DNA of 31,739 nt, taken from positions 1-31,739 of IMG/VR virus record IMGVR_UViG_3300020196_000151, one strand, 5' to 3'. Both the position numbers and the translations under genes were made by a program. This document shows, piece by piece, positions 263 to 13,073 of this stretch (within the stretch, counting starts at the first letter, position 1; the number at the start of each line of letters is the position of its first letter). The notes under the pieces were generated by a model, which was not told where the DNA came from, did not search any database, and saw only the letters and a program-made list of their open reading frames with translations. The stretch is from a virus.

Positions 263-580
263 TTATTTTTCTCTAATAAGTAATTCACCTAAAACTTCCA
301 TACGGCCCACTTGTCTTTGAAATTCATTTTGGTTCATATCTAAAGAGATACTTTTTAGAATTTCATCAAATTCTTTTTTAGCAGCTTCTTTATCAAATTT
401 ACCATCTACAACTTTTTTGTAATAAGGTGCTTTTACATAAAAGTGATTATAGGTTAACATTGCTAAACCACCTTTTTCTTTAGCTGTTTCAGCTATTTTA
501 GCGGCGCCTTTAGCACGTGTAGTAGCAAAATCTTCAAAAGTTTCTTTTGCTTCTTTTAATATATCAGTTAATTTAATCAT
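263..580 (-). CDS. Small putative internal virion protein with N-terminal ILKE tag
   Basis: A 105-residue, lysine- and alanine-rich, probably helical protein. Residues 1-10 (MIKLTDILKE) match the first ten residues of the next gene upstream (MIKLLDILNE) and of the 601-residue fusion enzyme (MIDLNTILNE). In T4, capsid-targeting peptides of internal proteins are removed by the gp21 prohead protease after a Leu/Ile-x-Glu motif, and ILKE fits that rule. The inferred mature protein would start at Ala11. The rest shows no known domain. Its start codon overlaps the stop of the upstream gene as ATGA, indicating translational coupling. The role as a head-internal protein is inference from the tag and neighbours. 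Confidence 0.8.
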   Translation of the reverse strand: MIKLTDILKEAKETFEDFATTRAKGAAKIAETAKEKGGLAMLTYNHFYVKAPYYKKVVDGKFDKEAAKKEFDEILKSISLDMNQNEFQRQVGRMEVLGELLIREK

Positions 581-1203
581 TTTTTTGTTTTTTTAACACA
601 ATTAGGATATCTTTTACCAAACATTTTTTTAAATCCTTTTTGGGTATATCCTTTCCAACATCTTTCTTTTAATAAATCTTCATTTTGTTGTATTGGAGCA
701 TATCCTGAACCATATGGCGCTGCTTTACCTGATTGTGGATCTGAAGTTTCTTTATTTAAACGTTTAGTTTTTTCTTTTGATGCTTCTCTACGTTTTTCAA
801 TATAATCTAAAGCACGTTTTAAACGTTTTTTTACTTCAGGATCTTTAGATCTTCCATAAGCAGCTCTAATACGTTGATGAATCACATTTATAATTTGTGA
901 TTTACGAGCATGTGGTTTAGCTTTAAATGATTTTTTAGCTAATGTATCTTTAACATCTTGAGCTGTCTTAAATTTTATACGCACAGTGTCTTTTGGATCT
1001 TCATCTGTGTATAAACGACGACTTGATCCTTTAGGTTTTTTACCTGTACCTTTTTTAGGTTCATCACCTTCTAGATATCCTTTTTTTACAGCTAAATCTT
1101 GGTCATTAGTCCAAATATCAGATGTTTTATATCTAACTTTTGACACCATATTTGATTTATATGGTGGATACATTTCATTTAATATATCTAATAATTTAAT
1201 CAT
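577..1203 (-). CDS. Basic putative internal virion protein, ILNE tag plus C-terminal CWKGY...PNC module
   Basis: A 208-residue, very basic protein. Residues 1-10 are the tag MIKLLDILNE, with a predicted Leu-x-Glu cleavage after Glu10. A Lys/Arg-rich middle part (about 45-160) would suit DNA contact inside a capsid. The C-terminus carries a compact two-cysteine module, CWKGYTQKGFKKMFG followed by RYPNCV. From memory this kind of module recurs at the C-termini of structural and hypothetical proteins of marine T4-like phages, where its function is unknown. The gene is coupled by ATGA to the downstream small tagged gene and sits one base from the upstream one. DNA-binding head-internal protein is an inference. 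Confidence 0.8.
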   Translation of the reverse strand: MIKLLDILNEMYPPYKSNMVSKVRYKTSDIWTNDQDLAVKKGYLEGDEPKKGTGKKPKGSSRRLYTDEDPKDTVRIKFKTAQDVKDTLAKKSFKAKPHARKSQIINVIHQRIRAAYGRSKDPEVKKRLKRALDYIEKRREASKEKTKRLNKETSDPQSGKAAPYGSGYAPIQQNEDLLKERCWKGYTQKGFKKMFGKRYPNCVKKTKK

Positions 1204-1204
1204 A

Positions 1205-2065
1205 TTACCAAAACCCTGAAAATGTTGTTTTAAATCCTAGTAGTTTAGCATAACGAGGTAAACGGCAACTCCAATATGAAGCTTTAGTTTTGTCTTTTTT
1301 ATTAGGACAATTATGGCGTTTAGAAAATGCCGCTCTAGCTTTTGGATTGTTTAATTTAGCTCTTAAACCACCACCTGCCATACCAAATGATACTTTCTTT
1401 ACTTTACCTTTATCTCTAACATAAACATAGAATTTTTTAGAACCACCACGTTTTGGTTTTCCAATTGGTGGTGTTTTCTTTTTCTTATCTGCTTCAGTTA
1501 GTTGTCCTGTTACTTTAGTAGTTAAACCATCTCTTTTTAATTTAGCAGCCATTTCAGCTACATTATCAGCAGTCATATCATAATCAGGATCACCTTCAAC
1601 TTGAGCGTAGTAAGTACCATCAGCCATTTTGTAAACATTGGCTACACCATTAGGACTTGAAAATATGGCTATATGTTCTTTAGAATCAAATGTACCTTCA
1701 CCTAATGCTTCTGTTAAGAATTCCTCAGTCAGAGGTAAGTCTAGTGGTACTTTAATATCATTATACTCGCCAAATGTACCTACATCTGTGTTATCAAAAT
1801 AATATTTATCTGATTCACATAACTGTATTCTACCATTATTATATAAGTTTCTTACTTCAGCAAATAATTTTAAAAACATTGCTGATTGAGGACGGTATAT
1901 AGATTCATTAACTGGTAAGTTATTTTCAATATGATAGTATAAGCCTTCAGAAATGAAGACTGGTTCTTTAGATTCATTAATAACTAATTTAGGGCCATGA
2001 TTATATTCTTGACCTACATAGTTAATAATTTTTTCAATATGTTCTTTGAGTTGAATCTTGTTCAT
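1205..2065 (-). CDS. Putative virion protein with conserved C-terminal Cys-rich module
   Basis: A 286-residue protein. The N-terminal third is helical and acidic and contains several Val/Ile-x-Glu steps (VINE, FISE, PVNE, then LTEE, FLTE) that could be prohead-protease sites. A small domain at about 125-185 contains YKMADGTYYAQVEGDPDYD. From about 205 the protein becomes Lys-rich and ends in a conserved module (YVYVRDKGKVKKVSFG, then HNCPNKKDKTKASYWSCRLPRY) with two visible cysteines and aromatic residues. Similar modules occur at the ends of marine T4-like phage proteins. The stop and start overlap as TAATG with the next gene. The precise function is not recognisable. Confidence 0.8.
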   Translation of the reverse strand: MNKIQLKEHIEKIINYVGQEYNHGPKLVINESKEPVFISEGLYYHIENNLPVNESIYRPQSAMFLKLFAEVRNLYNNGRIQLCESDKYYFDNTDVGTFGEYNDIKVPLDLPLTEEFLTEALGEGTFDSKEHIAIFSSPNGVANVYKMADGTYYAQVEGDPDYDMTADNVAEMAAKLKRDGLTTKVTGQLTEADKKKKTPPIGKPKRGGSKKFYVYVRDKGKVKKVSFGMAGGGLRAKLNNPKARAAFSKRHNCPNKKDKTKASYWSCRLPRYAKLLGFKTTFSGFW

Positions 2066-2493
2066 TAGTAAGATATTAAATCATTGTCATAACAATATTG
2101 CAAAAGATCTTTTACTTCTTTTTCAGATAATTCACCTTCATACACATCATACATGTTTTTAAAGTCACCAAATAATTCATGACTTTGCTCAGCATTGGCT
2201 ATAAACGATTTCATAAAATTTTTATCACTTATATATTGCTGAAGTGAATTTTTATTTATACCAAGCTTACTAACAATTTTTTCTATTTCACTATCCATAC
2301 CTTTATGTTCAGGATATTGAGAAATAAAAAATTCAGTATCCCATTCAGCCTCATATTCTCCATCACTTTGGGCAGCATCGTCTTGTTGTGTACCCCAAAA
2401 ATCTAGAATATCTTGTTCTAAATTACTTGAATTTTCTTTTAGGATACCAGCTAATTGCTGCATTCTTCTAATTTCATTAATTTGTCTTTTCAT
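2065..2493 (-). CDS. Acidic putative internal virion protein with RMQQLAGILKE tag
   Basis: A 142-residue protein if translation starts at the ATG at 2493. The frame stays open to 2541, but that extension overlaps the upstream gene and uses a non-ATG start. The chosen start follows the upstream stop (2495) by one base, the normal spacing here. Residues 1-20 (MKRQINEIRRMQQLAGILKE) form a basic amphipathic helix ending in ILKE, the same cleavage-type ending as the ten-residue tags nearby. The remainder is strongly acidic and helical (WGTQQDDAAQSDGEYEAEWD) with no recognised domain. By analogy to T4 internal proteins, the tag would direct it into the prohead and be removed. Confidence 0.8.
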   Translation of the reverse strand: MKRQINEIRRMQQLAGILKENSSNLEQDILDFWGTQQDDAAQSDGEYEAEWDTEFFISQYPEHKGMDSEIEKIVSKLGINKNSLQQYISDKNFMKSFIANAEQSHELFGDFKNMYDVYEGELSEKEVKDLLQYCYDNDLISY

Positions 2494-2494
2494 A

Positions 2495-2869
2495 TTAATA
2501 TGGAGTTGTTTCTTTTGCTTTTGGTAGTATCTTAAATTCAACTACACCTTCTATATTCTTAATATCTTCAACTATTTTCTTGATGGCGGCTTTAATGTCA
2601 CCTTCAAGTGCTGAAGTGTCAATTTTAATATCAACATTAGTCTTATAACGTAATTGTCCTTCTGAATTTGAACCAGGAACAGCAGCTTGTGAATTAACAA
2701 TAGTAACACCTGGTAAAGCACGCATAGCTGATAATATATTAGTTTGATCATTAACTTTAGTGTTAGTGATCATTGATGCTAATAATTGAAATTGTTTAGC
2801 AGCTGGTTTTTTTTCTTTTGGATTTTCTATTGGTGTGAAATCCTCTTCTTTTACTATGCGTATTTTCAT
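2495..2869 (-). CDS. Conserved phage protein, possible ferredoxin-like fold
   Basis: A 124-residue protein with a charged start (MKIRIVKEEDFTPIENPK) and then two similar halves: ILSAMRALPGVTIVNSQ near 45-61 and a helix plus strand around 95-117 (IKKIVEDIKNIEGVVEFKIL). The alternation of a helix, a Gly-Val turn and a strand suggests a small ferredoxin-like or ACT-like fold. I recall similar conserved proteins of unknown function in marine T4-like phages. It overlaps the upstream gene as TAATG and precedes the tagged protein by one base, so it belongs to the same translationally coupled cluster. No catalytic motif is visible. Confidence 0.75.
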   Translation of the reverse strand: MKIRIVKEEDFTPIENPKEKKPAAKQFQLLASMITNTKVNDQTNILSAMRALPGVTIVNSQAAVPGSNSEGQLRYKTNVDIKIDTSALEGDIKAAIKKIVEDIKNIEGVVEFKILPKAKETTPY

Positions 2870-3441
2870 TACTGCAAGTTTACTAATTTATATTTAGTTG
2901 ACTCAATTAATTCAACAAATGTATCTATTTGATTTTGAATATATGAGTCTTGAGGTAAAGAAGTACGATTTTTTTCAACATACATACATAATGCTTCAAA
3001 ATATTTAATCACATCATTATTTTCAATCCATTGTCCTTCGCCTTTATAACCAGTAATAATACCATAGCGGCCTTGAAATGACTCAACTAAAGCATCAATT
3101 AATGGTAATATACCCTCATAATATCCTTGTAAGGCTATATGAGCAGCATAAGCACCTGGTCCTTTAACTTGTAAATGAAATATATGAGCTTGTGTACGAG
3201 AAGCAAAAAAAGTTGATATAAATGAAGCCATCAACTGTATTGGGTTTGGTAGCTCAATAGATATGGCTAGTTCTGGTTGATTTGGATCAATAGTATCTAT
3301 TCCAAAACCTTCTTTAAGATTACCATCTTCAGCGGCATATAAAGCTCTCATGTATTTTTCAGCTGCCTTAGCATCTTTAGAACAGCCCATTTTTTTACCT
3401 GTTTCTTTATATACGCAATTTCCTTTACGATTATATGGCAT
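2869..3441 (-). CDS. Ferritin-like phage protein (DUF5856-like) with N-terminal two-Cys module
   Basis: A 190-residue protein in two parts. Residues 1-47 form a short module (MPYNRKGNCVYKETGKKMGC, then KYMRALYA) of a type repeatedly found on marine phage virion proteins. Residues 60-190 look like a four-helix ferritin/Dps-like domain: SRTQAHIFHLQVKGPGAYAA, then GYYEGILPLIDALVESFQGR. This resembles the viral family DUF5856 from memory. His, Glu and Asp residues lie where a di-iron site would be expected, but metal binding is not proven. The gene is the first of its cluster, behind an ATATTTAT box and a 7-bp inverted repeat in its leader. A DNA-protective or head-internal role is conjecture. 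Confidence 0.75.
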   Translation of the reverse strand: MPYNRKGNCVYKETGKKMGCSKDAKAAEKYMRALYAAEDGNLKEGFGIDTIDPNQPELAISIELPNPIQLMASFISTFFASRTQAHIFHLQVKGPGAYAAHIALQGYYEGILPLIDALVESFQGRYGIITGYKGEGQWIENNDVIKYFEALCMYVEKNRTSLPQDSYIQNQIDTFVELIESTKYKLVNLQ

Positions 3442-3819: not shown

Positions 3820-4395
3820 CTATATTTGTGTTTCACGCAACTTTTTAATATATTCTTTAACTTGTTTTATCTCATCTTCATTTATTTTGCCACCACTCCA
3901 TGTTTCAATATCTCCTTGTTCACTAAAATATGAATCTGTTTTACTAGTATAAAAATCTTCAATAGCTTTTTCAAAATCATCTACCTCAGCATTTTTATTA
4001 GCATTCATCATTTTCTTTTCATACTCATCCCACTTACCTTCTAATTTAATTTTAGCCTCCATTTCAATAACACAATCAAAACACATGTGATGTATATTCC
4101 ACATTTTTTTATTTAAATTATTATTAGCCATTGGTTTATTACAACTAGGACAAGCTAGAGGCATAGTGATTAACTGTCTTAATTTATCATGTTTAGTAAT
4201 AGTTTGTTTAATACTATTTTTAATAGTCCATTTTTTACCATTTTCTTCCCACACATCTCCTTCTTTATAGTCTTGTTGTTGTTTACTATAACCTACTTGT
4301 GTACTTATAGAACCACCAGCATTGCCAGTGATAATATTTCTCATTCTTTGTACATCACGTTTTGAAAACTCTTTTTTTAAATTTGTATCACTCAT
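3820..4395 (-). CDS. Conserved phage protein with a CxxC...CxxC zinc-binding motif
   Basis: A 191-residue protein. The N-terminus (FSKRDVQRMRNIITGN) resembles a conserved family seen in marine T4-like phages. A likely zinc site is formed by Cys82 and Cys85 (CPSC) with Cys105 and Cys108 (CFDC); His102 and His103 lie beside the second pair. A WTIKNSIKQTITK strand-turn segment lies just before it. The C-terminal part is acidic and helical. The start overlaps the stop of the fusion-enzyme gene as ATGA, so the two are probably made together. The zinc ribbon suggests nucleic-acid or protein binding, but I cannot name a function. Confidence 0.8.
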   Translation of the reverse strand: MSDTNLKKEFSKRDVQRMRNIITGNAGGSISTQVGYSKQQQDYKEGDVWEENGKKWTIKNSIKQTITKHDKLRQLITMPLACPSCNKPMANNNLNKKMWNIHHMCFDCVIEMEAKIKLEGKWDEYEKKMMNANKNAEVDDFEKAIEDFYTSKTDSYFSEQGDIETWSGGKINEDEIKQVKEYIKKLRETQI

Positions 4396-6197
4396 AAACC
4401 TAAATCTTTCAATTGTTGTATTGTGTCAGCAGCTGAAGTATGATGAATACCTATTCCACCAGCATCTTTCCAACGTTGTATATTATCTTTTCTATCATCA
4501 ATTAAAATAGAGTTTGGTGTAGCAAATTCTTGTTTACGTTCTGCTTGACGTAATATAAGTTTAGTACCAGGTACATTTCTTTTTACCCAAACAAACTTAC
4601 CAATTTTAGATGATTCTTCTCTTGATGGGGCTGATAGTAAATCTGGATTATATGGTTTAATATAACTCCATAGTTGTTTTCCATCAGGCATCCAATCTAA
4701 TTTAATCCAAAATTTAACTCCTGCTTTAGTTATTGAATCCCAAAATTCTTCTTTTGGTGTATCAAAACTAGCTTCTTTACCTGTTAATTCTTTATATCCT
4801 TTATCAAAATCAACTAACACACCATCCATATCACAATATATTTTATAGTTAGTTTTTTCTTTTACATCTTCTTCAAATATTTCTGGTCTATATTCACCAA
4901 ATTTTCTTAATAAAACACCAGCAGCTGCATTAGCTTCATTTTCAACTGGTGAACCTGTTTTACCATCTTCTTTATTTAATGGTGTTAATTCATTTTGTTT
5001 ACGATGTACTAATTCATGAGCTAGTGTACGTAATATATCTGCTGTTAATCTTGGTCCTCTAATCACTAATAACTCATCAGTTTTAGGTTGATAAGCTCCT
5101 AATGAATGTATTTGTTTAGCTAATTGCTCATCATCACTAAAAGTAATTTTAGGTACTTTTTGTAAATCAAGTGCTTTAGAAGCAAAATCAATAAAGTCAG
5201 CTATAGTGTTGTCTGTATTACTCTCAGGTTCAGTTAATGTTTCTTCTAAAGATGATTTCCACCAATTAATAGTAAATAAATCTTCTTCTATATTAACTGG
5301 AATGTTATGTTTAGAAAAATAATTTAATACTTTTTCACGCTGATTAGGATTATCATTTAAATTAGGAATTAACATACGACGTTCTTTACCACCAAAAGCC
5401 TGTTGAGAATACTCAAATGGTATAAGCATTGTGTTTAAAAAATTCTCAATTTTATTTGTTAAAGCATAAGGTACACGTATAATTAAATTACCATCAGCTT
5501 GATTTTCTTGTAATGAATCAACATTTAAAACTGGTATTCCTAATATTTTAAGTATATCATCATATTGTCCTTTTTGAACAACCGCCTCTGGAAAACAACC
5601 TTCAAGTGCTTTATATGTGTTTAGATATTCATTTCTAGCTTTAGAATATTCAGTTGATGACTTATCAGTCACTGAACGTAATGCTAAAACATTCTTTTTA
5701 AGTTGTGTCACTAAACCACGTACTTCAGTTCCTGATAAGCGTTTACCCCCTGTTATTATTTTTTCCTCAATAGATAAAGGCATTACTCTAGTACTAAATG
5801 CTTTTTGTAGTGGTGTAAAATAATCTTGTTCTTCTACTTCATTTTTAGCACCAGCAACATATGCTTTTAACTCTAAATCATCATCAAAAGCTGAAAATAA
5901 ATCTTTAATTGGTGAGGCATCTGTACTGATTCTAACAGTTACTTTAGCCATTGGAGATGTGGCTAAATATAAATCCCAAATACGTTTACTTTGTTCTTTA
6001 GTTATACCATCACGTGTTTTATGTCCTATAAGTACTATTACTTTAGTAACATAAGAACGAGCAGCTAATTCTTTAACTACCTCAAAATGTCCTTCATGTG
6101 GTGGTTTAAATCCACCTGGATAGTAACAGATAGCAGGAGGAGTTTTTTGTTCATTTTCCTCATTTAACTCATTCAATATTGTATTTAAATCAATCAT
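4392..6197 (-). CDS. Tagged multi-enzyme fusion: nucleotidyltransferase, HExxH metallopeptidase-like and HAD phosphatase
   Basis: A 601-residue protein with at least three enzyme-like domains. Residues 1-10 are the capsid-type tag MIDLNTILNE. Residues 22-165 form a HxGH nucleotidyltransferase fold (NMNAT/cytidylyltransferase superfamily): GGFKPPHEGH with His34 and His37, and the late motif SGTEVR at 155-160. Residues 235-315 are an unassigned alpha/beta segment. Residues 330-435 resemble a zinc metallopeptidase: HELVH at 394-398 and a downstream ENEAN (419-423) that may give the third ligand. Residues 450-601 are a HAD phosphatase of the deoxyribonucleotidase kind, with DMDGV at 456-460 and LIDDRKDN near 565-572. 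Linkers contain Leu-x-Glu steps (SLQE 228-231, LTE 321-323), so it may be a polyprotein cut during head maturation. Substrates are unknown. It is coupled by ATGA to the kinase upstream. Confidence 0.85.
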   Translation of the reverse strand: MIDLNTILNELNEENEQKTPPAICYYPGGFKPPHEGHFEVVKELAARSYVTKVIVLIGHKTRDGITKEQSKRIWDLYLATSPMAKVTVRISTDASPIKDLFSAFDDDLELKAYVAGAKNEVEEQDYFTPLQKAFSTRVMPLSIEEKIITGGKRLSGTEVRGLVTQLKKNVLALRSVTDKSSTEYSKARNEYLNTYKALEGCFPEAVVQKGQYDDILKILGIPVLNVDSLQENQADGNLIIRVPYALTNKIENFLNTMLIPFEYSQQAFGGKERRMLIPNLNDNPNQREKVLNYFSKHNIPVNIEEDLFTINWWKSSLEETLTEPESNTDNTIADFIDFASKALDLQKVPKITFSDDEQLAKQIHSLGAYQPKTDELLVIRGPRLTADILRTLAHELVHRKQNELTPLNKEDGKTGSPVENEANAAAGVLLRKFGEYRPEIFEEDVKEKTNYKIYCDMDGVLVDFDKGYKELTGKEASFDTPKEEFWDSITKAGVKFWIKLDWMPDGKQLWSYIKPYNPDLLSAPSREESSKIGKFVWVKRNVPGTKLILRQAERKQEFATPNSILIDDRKDNIQRWKDAGGIGIHHTSAADTIQQLKDLGL

Positions 6198-6919
6198 TTA
6201 ATAAATGCCTTTATTTTGGATATAGCTTGGTCTTTAGAAGTGAATTTTGGTTTTTGTTTAAGTAGTTGTTGAATATTCTTATTCATAGCTTCAACTTCAG
6301 CTTTTCTTTTAGCTATCTCTTCTGGTGTTTTTGGTTTACCTTTAGCTTTAGATGTATCAAAAAATCTACGCTTTATTTCTTCTGGATTAAAACTTTTATC
6401 AGCATCTTTTGGATCATTGTTTATTAAAATAAATTTATCACCAAATGCTTGTTGATATGTTTCAATGTTTTGATTTACTTTTTCCCATGTATTTAACACT
6501 TGACCAGGCATTAATGAACGATCTCTATTTACATTACGTTCAAGTGATGTTACAGGAGAAACATATATCATTATCATCATAGTTTCATATCCTAATGCCT
6601 CTAATTCTGTCTTTTTTTTAAGTAAAGGACGTGAGGCTGCACCTGTACCATCAATAATAATATCCTTTAAATTTTTAAATGCTTTAGTGTATTTATCCTT
6701 AGTTGTTTTTTGAGCTTGACTCATTAATTTAGCGGCTTGTGATAATTGATCTGGTGTGAAATCTTTAATTTTAGTACCAATACCTGCTGCTTTAAGTAAA
6801 TCTTCATAAGTGTCATCAACATTAATCACCTTGAATTTAGATAATGGTAAAGCCTTAGATACAAAGGATTTGCCCGCACCTGCGGGCCCAGCCATGAATA
6901 TTGCTTGAGGAGTACTCAT
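6194..6919 (-). CDS. P-loop kinase, zeta-toxin / polynucleotide-kinase-like
   Basis: A 241-residue protein. Walker A is GPAGAGKS at 11-18, directly after strand AIFMA. INVDD (33-37) and IIIDGTGAASR (near 88-98) fit the acceptor-binding and second strands of zeta-toxin/AAA_33 kinases. NVNRDRSLMPGQV near 130-142 supplies lid arginines. A Lys-rich helical tail follows. The family includes phage polynucleotide kinases, chloramphenicol phosphotransferases and zeta toxins, so the substrate is open (nucleic-acid end, nucleotide or nucleotide-sugar). It lies directly upstream of, and overlaps by ATGA, a gene encoding a nucleotidyltransferase and a HAD phosphatase. That suggests a joint nucleotide or nucleic-acid-end pathway. 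The Walker A codons are unusually GC-rich. Confidence 0.85.
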   Translation of the reverse strand: MSTPQAIFMAGPAGAGKSFVSKALPLSKFKVINVDDTYEDLLKAAGIGTKIKDFTPDQLSQAAKLMSQAQKTTKDKYTKAFKNLKDIIIDGTGAASRPLLKKKTELEALGYETMMIMIYVSPVTSLERNVNRDRSLMPGQVLNTWEKVNQNIETYQQAFGDKFILINNDPKDADKSFNPEEIKRRFFDTSKAKGKPKTPEEIAKRKAEVEAMNKNIQQLLKQKPKFTSKDQAISKIKAFIK

Positions 6920-8109: not shown

Positions 8110-9288
8110 TTAAAAATTAATCTGTCCCTGAATTCTTAAAAGTTTACCTTTTTGTAGATTGTCTTGTTTAACAAAGTCTTCAAATCGACGTTGTGAAATG
8201 GTATACATCATTACAAGTTCAAATTGCTTTATAGGTTGCCATTCTAAACCTATTTCTAATTCTTTTACGTTATAACTACGGGAATCAAGTTCATGTTTTT
8301 TACCACCATTATAAAAATGATATCTAGTAAAAGGAATTATTGTTTGATTATTTAATTTTTTCATGTAAGACGCCATTATATATCCTCCTGATAATGGCAT
8401 AGTAGAGATAGAATCTTTAATTTTATCAAATTGTGGACCACGGCCTACATTATATTCAGCTTGTATCCCAAATGGTTTAGGATATAAAATAAATGACATA
8501 GCCATTCGTTGATCTAGATAAGTCATATTTGAATTTATCTTGGTTCCATTTGATAGTTGATCCTTAGAAAATGTATATAGACCTCTATAGGCTTGGATTG
8601 ATGGTTCTATAATTTGGTTATTAAGTTGTATAGGCCACGTAAATCTAATTACTTTATGTAAATTATTATTTGCTTCCGGTCTATTAGCTGTTTGCCCATT
8701 GTATAATCCAATTCCAAAAATCCCATAATCACCACTTCCTTTTAGTCCATCTTTAACTAAATCGGCAAATAATTTTCTTTGCTTTGGTGGAGCCCAATAA
8801 AAAAAACCACCTATATCTCTTTCATTACTAACAGCACTATTTAATCCATCTGTTCTATCAAGTGGAAGTCGATTCTGACTTGATTGCATATTTTCAAACC
8901 CATACGGCACTTTACTTTGTCCTAATCGTATGCGAAATGAATTTGTTTTATCTAATCCTAAGTCAAAATAGGCATCACGTATTTGTCCAAAGTGTTGAGA
9001 AGATGATGAAGCATTACTTGCAAAGTCAGGTTGGATATAAAAATAAACACGTTGGTTTATTTGTCCTGAAAATATTAGCCTTAGTCGTCTAATAAAAAAT
9101 CCACTATTCTCTCCCCAGGATCTGTCGCATTGTTCACATCTTAATTTAGGATTAGTTTCAAAAAGCCTATTGTATCTAACTTGTGTATATCCTCTTAAAT
9201 TTATAGATTCGTACCATTTGTTAGTAGCTGTCTGACTGAAGGATAAAATTGGAGAGATTAATAGTAGAAAAAATAATAAATATTTCAA
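8110..9288 (-). CDS. Outer-membrane porin, phosphate-selective (OprO/OprP, Porin_O_P) type
   Basis: A 392-residue protein. Residues 1-19 (MKYLLFFLLLISPILSFSQ) form a Sec signal peptide of the style common in Bacteroidota. The mature part is a beta-barrel: LRGYTQVRYNRLF at about 31-43, FFIRRLRLIFSGQI near 64-77, RIRLGQSKVPYG near 119-130, many aromatic-ended strands, and a final strand ending QGQINF with a C-terminal Phe. This matches OprO/OprP-like porins in length and pattern; the substrate is not certain. The start codon is TTG (9286-9288), with no in-frame ATG nearby. The neighbours on both sides are phage genes. It probably inserts in the host outer membrane, altering nutrient uptake or receptor exposure. 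A bacterial gene captured by the phage is the simplest reading. Confidence 0.9.
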   Translation of the reverse strand: MKYLLFFLLLISPILSFSQTATNKWYESINLRGYTQVRYNRLFETNPKLRCEQCDRSWGENSGFFIRRLRLIFSGQINQRVYFYIQPDFASNASSSSQHFGQIRDAYFDLGLDKTNSFRIRLGQSKVPYGFENMQSSQNRLPLDRTDGLNSAVSNERDIGGFFYWAPPKQRKLFADLVKDGLKGSGDYGIFGIGLYNGQTANRPEANNNLHKVIRFTWPIQLNNQIIEPSIQAYRGLYTFSKDQLSNGTKINSNMTYLDQRMAMSFILYPKPFGIQAEYNVGRGPQFDKIKDSISTMPLSGGYIMASYMKKLNNQTIIPFTRYHFYNGGKKHELDSRSYNVKELEIGLEWQPIKQFELVMMYTISQRRFEDFVKQDNLQKGKLLRIQGQINF

Positions 9289-11972: not shown

Positions 11973-13073
11973 TTAACATTGAGCTTGAGATTGTATAGTT
12001 AATCCACCAAAACTTTCTGTTCCATCAATTAAACATCCTGTGCCTACAGTTCCACCTGGACTAACTGTAGTTCCAGTTGGATTTCCATTACAATCTGTGG
12101 CACTCCAAGTAATACTACCACCCGCGTTGTTTACTAAAGTATAAGCTGTACATGTAGGTATTGGTGTTTCTGTTGGTGTTGGTGTTATTGTAGGGGTTGG
12201 AGTTATTGTAGGTGTTGCTGTAGGTGTTGCGGTTGGTGTTGCAGTTGGTGTTGCAGTTGGTGTTGGAGTTATTGTAGGTGTTGCGGTTGGTGTTGCAGTT
12301 GGTGTTGCAGTTGGTGCTACAGTTGGTGTAGGTGTTGCAGTTGGTGTTGCAGTTGGTGTTGCAGTTGGTGTAGCTGTAGGAGTGGATGTTGGTGTTGATG
12401 TTGGAGTAGGAGTTGGAGTAGGAGTTGGAGTGGGAGTAGGAGTTGGGGTTGGCATAAATCCATCAGGAATTATACTTAATACAGCTATATTTTGCTCATA
12501 AAATACATTACCAATATATGAACTTTGAGATAGTAATGTTCCAATAGATGAACTCACATTACTACCACTAAAACGTAAATTATAATTTCCATCATCAAAA
12601 ATTTTATAAGTAGCTGATGAAGCACTTATATATGATAATTCTAAAGTAGTTGGTAATATTTTATCACCAGTTAATTGGCGTGGGAAATTAATAACATAAA
12701 TTAATGATCCATTTCCAGTTGGAAAAAATTTTATTGTATCTAAATTACCTAATTCAATAAATCCATTATAATATGAAGATGTAGATAAAGTACCATCATT
12801 AAAAATAGTACCTTGCATTGAACTTGTATTAACATATGTTGGTAAAAAGTTAGGATAATAAGTTGTGTTTATCATGTCATAAACTAAACGATCATATTGA
12901 CCATTAGTCTCAAGCTCATTATGTGGATCAAATAATGAACTAGTGAACTTAACACCTGCATTTACTGTGATTTGAAAGTCAGTTAAAGACCCAGATAATA
13001 TATTCCAGCTTTTATTTGCTGTATATGGAACTACAAATGAGTCTGATACATTAATTCGTTTAAACACTGACAT
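11973..13073 (-). CDS. Putative tail-fibre/adhesin with long Thr-Pro repeat
   Basis: A 366-residue protein in three parts. Residues 1-206 are a beta-rich domain ([26 protein letters not shown]-like strands). Residues 207-306 are an almost pure Pro-Thr repeat (PTPTPT, then PTATPT and PTITPT). Residues 307-366 form a small Cys-containing domain ([17 protein letters not shown], ending IQSQAQC) with four cysteines, at residues 307, 325, 345 and 366. A stiff extended Pro-Thr stalk carrying a terminal domain suggests a fibre or adhesin that reaches out from the tail. The repeat encodes an obvious slippage-prone tract. It lies ten bases from the upstream structural gene. Confidence 0.8.
12155..12452 (-). 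repeat. Minisatellite encoding (PT)n / (PTAT)n
   Basis: About 300 bp of imperfect 6- and 12-bp units (coding-strand ACTCCT and ACTGCAACACCA types) make the Pro-Thr stalk. Interruptions with Ile, Ser, Val and Glu codons break the array. Length variation by in-frame slippage would alter stalk length without frameshift. Confidence 0.9.

Follow-up and report, generated by a model that had tools for sequence, protein, structure and literature searches.

Proteins packaged into the head of phage T4 carry a ten-residue capsid-targeting sequence (CTS), in which residues 4 and 7 serve targeting and residues 8 and 10 processing, as described for IPIII (PMC9026906). The prohead protease gp21 of T4 cleaves after L/I-x-E. 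Both IPII and IPIII start with MKTYQEFIAE, with the glutamate at position 10, and each T4 internal protein provides one mature domain, while Alt is an enzyme that is packaged and ejected. In two T4-like cyanophages, mass spectrometry of CsCl-purified virions detected nucleotidyltransferases (NTases), namely an NMNAT in S-SCSM1 (PMC9602691) and a cytidylyltransferase in S-CREM2 (PMC10665884). Each paper refers to additional NMNAT-like examples, and both author teams caution that non-structural virion proteins might be co-purified contaminants. NAD supply is discussed there, and the tag goes unmentioned in the available parts of both papers. In the genomes, the S-SCSM1 NMNAT starts with MKSFLQFLKE followed by AAES and the S-CREM2 cytidylyltransferase with MKNFSSFLTE followed by ADEK, i.e. 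both N-termini read [LI]8-x-E10 with Phe at positions 4 and 7.

Phage polypeptides combining disparate enzyme domains are known as 'polyvalent proteins' (Iyer et al. 2017, PMC5512222). They include a zincin-like metallopeptidase (MPTase) of 12 published clades, are predicted to be injected with the DNA, and were already likened by their authors to viral polyproteins released by embedded peptidases. Ejected head proteins of the phiKZ/SPN3US type comprise many packaged proteins that a prohead protease matures by cleaving after a short xxE motif, each propeptide being cut at several places (PMC5694885). Their propeptides are longer, the specificity in phiKZ is S/A-x-E, and joint-cut multi-enzyme fusions are not described in the accessible part of that paper. 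Finally, NadR-type NAD synthesis enzymes of phages have a HIGH-superfamily adenylyltransferase near a P-loop kinase (PMC9503650).

The protein analysed here is encoded in a 31,739-bp IMG/VR fragment (the window) of a phage distantly related to T4. The fragment carries genes for the tail, the baseplate, a primase and an exonuclease, followed by a series of ORFs most of which are small, and all of these lie on one strand. Within this series the initial annotation had placed a 601-residue protein at 4392-6197. These coordinates are exact, and we add that the frame lies on the minus strand, uninterrupted from the ATG at 6197 to the stop at 4392; a plus-strand reading of the same interval is full of stops and was ruled out. 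Two neighbours overlap the ORF, a zeta-toxin-family kinase gene with its stop and a 191-aa ORF with its start. Diverse relatives show the same gene order, in which primase, exonuclease and kinase are followed by the fusion, whole or split, and then by the 191-aa ORF. Some dozen further contigs conserve the fusion over its full length at 65-88%. We consider it probable, judging from the sequence, that the fusion is a head-packaged polyprotein from which the prohead protease releases the individual enzymes for ejection. Its parts are as follows.

4392..6197, minus strand: NTase-(middle domain)-zincin-HAD fusion, 601 aa, from ORF reading and relatives
6168..6197, minus strand: T4-CTS-like capsid-targeting tag MIDLNTILNE, residues 1-10, with [LI]8-x-E10 and hydrophobic residues 4 and 7
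5526..6140, minus strand: HxGH (HIGH-superfamily) nucleotidyltransferase, residues 20-224, from motifs, profile and fold
5505..5513, minus strand: predicted prohead-protease site LQE, residues 229-231, at the NTase/middle-domain joint, with E231 inside the segment 231-234 of pLDDT<50
5298..5495, minus strand: small alpha/beta middle domain without a recognised family, residues ~235-300, AlphaFold2 pLDDT about 70-91
5229..5291, minus strand: disordered joint, residues 303-323 (IEE305, LEE319, LTE323), with pLDDT<50 at 304-317 and 319-321
4875..5225, minus strand: zincin-like metallopeptidase, residues 325-441 (HELVH 394-398, E419), from motif and a model of the domain alone
4872..4880, minus strand: predicted prohead-protease site IFE, residues 440-442, before the HAD domain, with pLDDT<50 at 444-448
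4395..4853, minus strand: HAD phosphatase of the NT5C / 5'(3')-deoxyribonucleotidase type, residues 449-601, from profile and fold

A single-sequence PDB search with the whole protein gave nothing useful. The AlphaFold2 model of the fusion, built from an 83-row alignment of relatives, has a mean pLDDT of 87.2 and falls below 50 only at residues 121-123, 231-234, 304-317, 319-321 and 444-448. The initial annotation had read the protein as a HxGH nucleotidyltransferase, an HExxH metallopeptidase-like domain and a HAD phosphatase, and had named structure prediction per domain as a way to check this; all three folds are recovered in the models. It mentioned neither the middle domain nor E442 as a fourth candidate region for cleavage. 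The middle domain is confined to near relatives; of the first 28 loci, L001-L007 alone gave matches to it.

The NTase carries the motifs G-F-K-P-P-H34-E-G-H37 and LSGTxxR157-160 (SxTxxR type). In the alignment of relatives K31, G36, H37 and R160 are essentially invariant, and HxGH reads TxGH in 16/45 aligned NTase rows. The modelled fold is the Rossmann-like fold of PPAT/NMNAT (NadD-like) enzymes (VIA Z 14.7, 152 residues aligned, rmsd 2.6), with a best Foldseek match of 8e-5 and a best profile match to PDB sequences of 5e-6. Going by this fold, the most likely task of the enzyme is to make or repair a dinucleotide, for instance NAD, the substrate itself being a guess. The NAD supply proposed for the cyanophage NTases would fit counter-defence ideas.

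In the zincin domain the residues H394-E395-xx-H398 and E419 are invariant in 63/63 alignment rows. Folded alone, the domain reaches a pLDDT of 93.7 and shows a helix, three strands, the HExxH helix and a helix with the glutamate. This is the topology given for the MPTase of polyvalent proteins, i.e. helix, three strands and two helices with HExxH and then Glu (PMC5512222). Structural matches are Wss1 (Z 8.5), selecase and IrrE, overall at Z 7-8.5, modest in score and consistent in family, and members match the DUF6782 and M78 peptidase models weakly. Outer-surface-protein matches obtained with the sequence profile against the PDB were spurious; folding the domain alone gave zincins instead. 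From its modelled fold the zincin may cut a host protein, although which one is guesswork.

The HAD domain has the nucleophile motif (DxDG) as DMDGV456-460 and matches PHROG_2643, 5'-3' deoxyribonucleotidase, at E=2e-27. Residues 449-600 adopt the 5'(3')-deoxyribonucleotidase fold in the AlphaFold2 model, with NT5C-type structures at Z 15.5. We guess from this fold that the nucleotidase may trim (deoxy)nucleotides or nucleotide signals.

The N-terminus MIDLNTILNE agrees with the CTS of T4 internal proteins position for position, having hydrophobic residues at 4 and 7 and L8-x-E10. It thus has the form of T4-type cargo, a 7-20-aa N-terminal propeptide ending in L/I-x-E. A second [LI]xE ends at E13, and a cut is predicted after E10. 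Among 2,086 distinct N-termini from the loci the Glu of the first [LI]xE peaks at residue 10, with 227 N-termini vs about 50 at most other early positions, and N-termini with [LI]8-x-E10 are hydrophobic at position 4 in 93% and at position 7 in 92%. The strict tag pattern is found in 21/115 cargo-cluster ORFs vs 3/200 others (p=1e-7; background 0.0013 per position), where these statistics, as well as those for the joints, treat related sequences as partly independent. A loose tag ([LI]xE within residues 3-22) is present in 73/115 cargo ORFs vs 57/198 elsewhere, compared with 37.7 in shuffles. The gp21, gp22 and gp23 proteins of relatives also bear an N-terminal [LI]xE.

The tag is common to small neighbouring ORFs, as had been recognised from the start: MIDLNTILNE of the fusion compares with MIKLTDILKE and MIKLLDILNE. 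The neighbours concerned, together with the kinase gene, are listed here.

263..580, minus strand: small tagged ORF, N-terminal sequence MIKLTDILKE then AK...
577..1203, minus strand: tagged ORF, N-terminal sequence MIKLLDILNE then MYPPYK...
2065..2493, minus strand: small ORF with an N-terminal LxE, ..QQLAGILKE then NSS
6194..6919, minus strand: zeta-toxin/AAA_33 family kinase gene by family match, directly upstream and overlapping the fusion start

In relatives, the module of the second of these ORFs also occurs as part of polyproteins, where it follows an [LI]xE (e.g. L015, ..LKE then MMYPPYK). All 20 aligned members of the kinase family match Zeta_toxin. The kinase has the tag MIxLxxLLKE in 30/31 nonredundant relatives with an N-terminal extension, whereas the tag is absent in the window and in L064/L065; being CTS-tagged in nearly all relatives, this kinase is possibly packaged. 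Other separate ORFs have a tag of their own in 27/34 cases for NTase-zincin, 10/14 for NTase and 28/45 for HAD, and split-off DUF5872-like ORFs are mostly tagged too. We also observed a DUF5856 / PHROG 'starvation-inducible' protein at 2869-3441 (minus strand), which has LKE at residue 44 before its domain and is possibly packaged as well.

Since three enzyme folds stand behind a T4-CTS-like tag, the protein is probably packaged cargo like T4 Alt. This comparison had been made in the initial annotation, and it gains from the tagged NTases in cyanophage virions. The cyanophage proteins share with the fusion a HxGH-superfamily NTase behind an L8-x-E10 tag, but they are stand-alone and lack zincin and HAD. 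An ordinary cytoplasmic multi-enzyme fusion for nucleotide metabolism during infection, with another role for the N-terminal helix, would be in keeping with the 11/45 nonredundant standalone HADs that have no room for a tag and with the frequency of NT5C-like nucleotidases and NMNATs as metabolic genes of phages. The position-exact T4 CTS match, specific to the cargo cluster, and the detection of similarly tagged NTases in cyanophage virions argue against this explanation, which we regard as very unlikely.

Returning to the packaged polyprotein, we analysed the [LI]xE motifs within the fusion, which end at residues 10, 13, 145, 231, 305, 319, 323 and 442. All but the one at 145 (7/8) lie in ten-residue blocks of the AlphaFold2 model with mean pLDDT<65, and each of the seven low-pLDDT blocks holds one [LI]xE (hypergeometric p=2e-4 against all Glu). 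In near relatives the sites at 231, 319 and 323 are retained in 10/10, that at 442 in 8/10, at 145 in 6/10 and at 305 in 5/10. The new N-termini at residues 11, 232 and 324 predicted by the initial annotation fall right after the motifs at E10, E231 and E323. L004 and L005 carry an additional DUF5661-like module right at the 319-323 joint, with LEE/LTE on both flanks. In the split-ORF clade L008-L010 and L028 the upstream ORF terminates exactly at ..EIFE-stop. That split ORFs generally end at the cleavage Glu holds for this one clade only (4/54 pairs) and was not used as general support.

The association of [LI]xE with module boundaries extends to the relatives. Within 15 aa upstream of an internal HAD the motif is present in 20/28 modules vs a 13% background (p=2e-12), and the corresponding counts for other internal modules are 11/16 for the zinc ribbon, 12/13 for SS and 6/9 for the NTase. 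Short linkers hold 19 [LI]xE vs 8.4 in shuffles, and domain interiors are depleted (112 vs 154). In 25 nonredundant NTase-zincin-HAD fusions the motif occurs between NTase and zincin in 25/25 and between zincin and HAD in 23/25, although long linkers often have one by chance. These patterns suggest that fusions and splits among relatives are module swaps at [LI]xE joints. Some joints may have persisted from the tags of fused ORFs and not be under selection as sites.

The latter point bears on whether the protein is packaged and delivered whole, with only the tag removed and the enzymes working in the new host as a single multidomain 'polyvalent' protein. The N4 virion RNAP and plasmid ArdC/TraC1 (PMC5512222) provide precedents, and internal [LI]xE could be relics of fused tagged ORFs, as in L102, where klhkilnevi looks like an old tag. 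The joints of the window do not resemble tag remnants, yet they retain [LI]xE. They are also disordered, E231, E319 and E323 are kept in 10/10 relatives and domain interiors are motif-depleted, so that delivery in one piece appears unlikely to us.

The initial annotation had further suggested that the metallopeptidase might process the fusion itself. Processing in cis by the zincin would agree with its active-site residues being invariant in all aligned rows and with the MPTase-driven processing proposed for polyvalent proteins (PMC5512222). This role of the zincin is less likely because zincin-free proteins (kinase, HAD, DUF5872-like and SS ORFs) have identical joints and tags. Moreover, the relatives encode an L/I-x-E-specific protease of a kind known from T4. 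Taken together, we consider cis processing extremely improbable; cutting by the prohead protease is predicted instead because of motif, disorder and conservation, the protease being seen in relatives.

A packaged and cut polyprotein would thus work in the following way. The fusion would be produced late, together with the remaining cargo of the cluster, as its position suggests, and MIDLNTILNE would direct it into the prohead core in the manner of the T4 CTS, given the position-exact match. A T4-gp21-type protease would then cut after E10/E13, around E231, at E305-E323 and at E442. The freed NTase, middle domain, zincin and HAD nucleotidase would stay with the DNA and be ejected into the host. 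There the NTase would act towards a dinucleotide such as NAD, the nucleotidase on (deoxy)nucleotides or signals and the zincin on a host protein, all of them guessed substrates. Against this reading we counted the tagless standalone HADs, the loss of the kinase tag in the window, the F-T-E / F-S-E that replaces [LI]xE at the zincin-HAD joint in L002/L007, and E145, which sits inside the NTase.

Relatives are found in hundreds of IMG/VR contigs, with at least 524-587 per domain among the matches listed in the per-domain scans. The 308 distinct complete ORFs among the matches listed comprise NTase-zincin (83), HAD alone (72), zincin alone (54), NTase alone (42), NTase-zincin-HAD (40) and others (17), and relative ORFs among these matches reach 1,765-1,835 aa. 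Bacterial genomes yielded no close relative. The window, 31.7 kb long, stops short of the head genes; a gp21-type protease and a gp23-type capsid protein are seen in relatives and in the cultured Flavobacterium phage immuto. In relatives, which also have terminase and portal genes, the cargo block sits upstream of terminase-gp20-gp21-gp22-gp23. Peptidase_S77, the T4 gp21 family, exceeds its cut-off in 9/28 contigs of a first set of relatives and 25/37 of a second, as against 0/14 control genomes, and among the first 28 contigs 8/8 of those holding gp23 also have the Peptidase_S77 prohead protease. In one near relative the gp21 homologue is encoded at G005 33063-33692.

In immuto a 907-aa ORF (L302 19173-21896) consists of a pol-beta-NTase-like N-terminal region, NTase, zincin and an extra HEIEH motif. 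It is followed by a HAD ORF starting MKKVMGNLADLLLE, with terminase, gp20, prohead protease and gp23 downstream. The 907-aa ORF has an apparent second zincin-like motif, VRHEIEHLTH, after the first, and its NTase motif is HxAH, not HxGH. The Baltic flavophage paper contains no virion proteomics of immuto and does not mention this phage.

How, then, does the fusion relate to the described systems? Like T4 IPI-III and Alt it has a ten-residue tag with hydrophobic residues 4/7 and [LI]8-x-E10, and its relatives share Peptidase_S77 and the gp20-gp23 module; unlike the T4 internal proteins it has several unrelated enzymes per tag, with further [LI]xE between them. As in polyvalent proteins, at least two biochemically disparate domains stand in one polypeptide of a portal-terminase phage (portal and terminase being seen in relatives), and the pol-beta NTase domains of some relatives also recall that group (PMC5512222). 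Whereas release by embedded peptidases was proposed there, the joints of the fusion match a trans-acting prohead protease. The NadR type differs in that the kinase here is a separate zeta-toxin-family gene and the fusion has no ribosylnicotinamide-kinase domain.

The initial annotation knew of no named system for this combination. The general idea has in fact been published as polyvalent proteins, but in the open-access literature (subscription journals being outside the scope) we found no earlier description of the NTase-zincin-NT5C combination in T4-like phages. Neither this combination nor 'HIGH nucleotidyl' was found in the main text of PMC5512222, and no account of prohead-protease sites serving as module joints was found in the open-access literature either. 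Packaged enzymes (Alt) and multi-enzyme injected proteins are known already, and prohead-protease sites as swappable module joints would be the new part.

The chances are about even that T4-like phages of aquatic bacteria have a true polyprotein system, in which proteins of 500 to 1,800 aa with interchangeable modules (NTases of two folds, zincins, HAD nucleotidase, zinc ribbons and others), prohead-protease-site joints and a single tag would be cut inside the head and ejected as a ready early toolkit. If true, T4 head cargo and polyvalent proteins would be joined by one mechanism, with head maturation processing a polyprotein. For a little-understood set of hypothetical genes, found in hundreds of environmental T4-like phages, the reading yields a testable prediction of head cargo, cut sites and the first enzymes in the host, and immuto, a cultured relative with the laboratory host LMO8, makes it directly testable. 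Hydrophobic residues 4 and 7, [LI]8-x-E10 and [LI]xE joints would provide a sequence rule for ejected effectors in viral genomes.

Several further ORFs were seen in the relatives and the window. The ORFs of 1,765-1,835 aa in L206 (2521-7818), L214 and L218 (2293-7800) have an N-terminal FQPFHKGH nucleotidyltransferase and a zincin and are mostly unannotated. A 705-aa ORF in L139 (2975-5092) fuses an N-terminal domain with EKTDGQN, a nucleotidyltransferase/ligase-like motif, to a HxGH NTase. An RNA-repair reading (kinase, HAD and ligase) was rejected: the N-terminal part of L139, the supposed ligase, matched neither a family nor a PDB entry, and zeta toxin is the closest match of the kinase. 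The window encodes a phage-borne Porin_O_P outer-membrane porin at 8110-9288 (minus strand; Pfam 4e-24). At the corresponding position, flanked by exonuclease and kinase, a 1,092-aa outer-membrane beta-barrel (CarboxypepD_reg; L049 6404-9682) occurs in one relative and a lipoprotein-like ORF (L001 3098-4264) in another. Porin_O_P and the swapped outer-membrane genes point to a host among the Bacteroidota and to a hotspot for outer-membrane proteins. A tail-region ORF at 11973-13073 (minus strand) contains a long (PT)n-rich repeat stretch with locally shifted GC skew.
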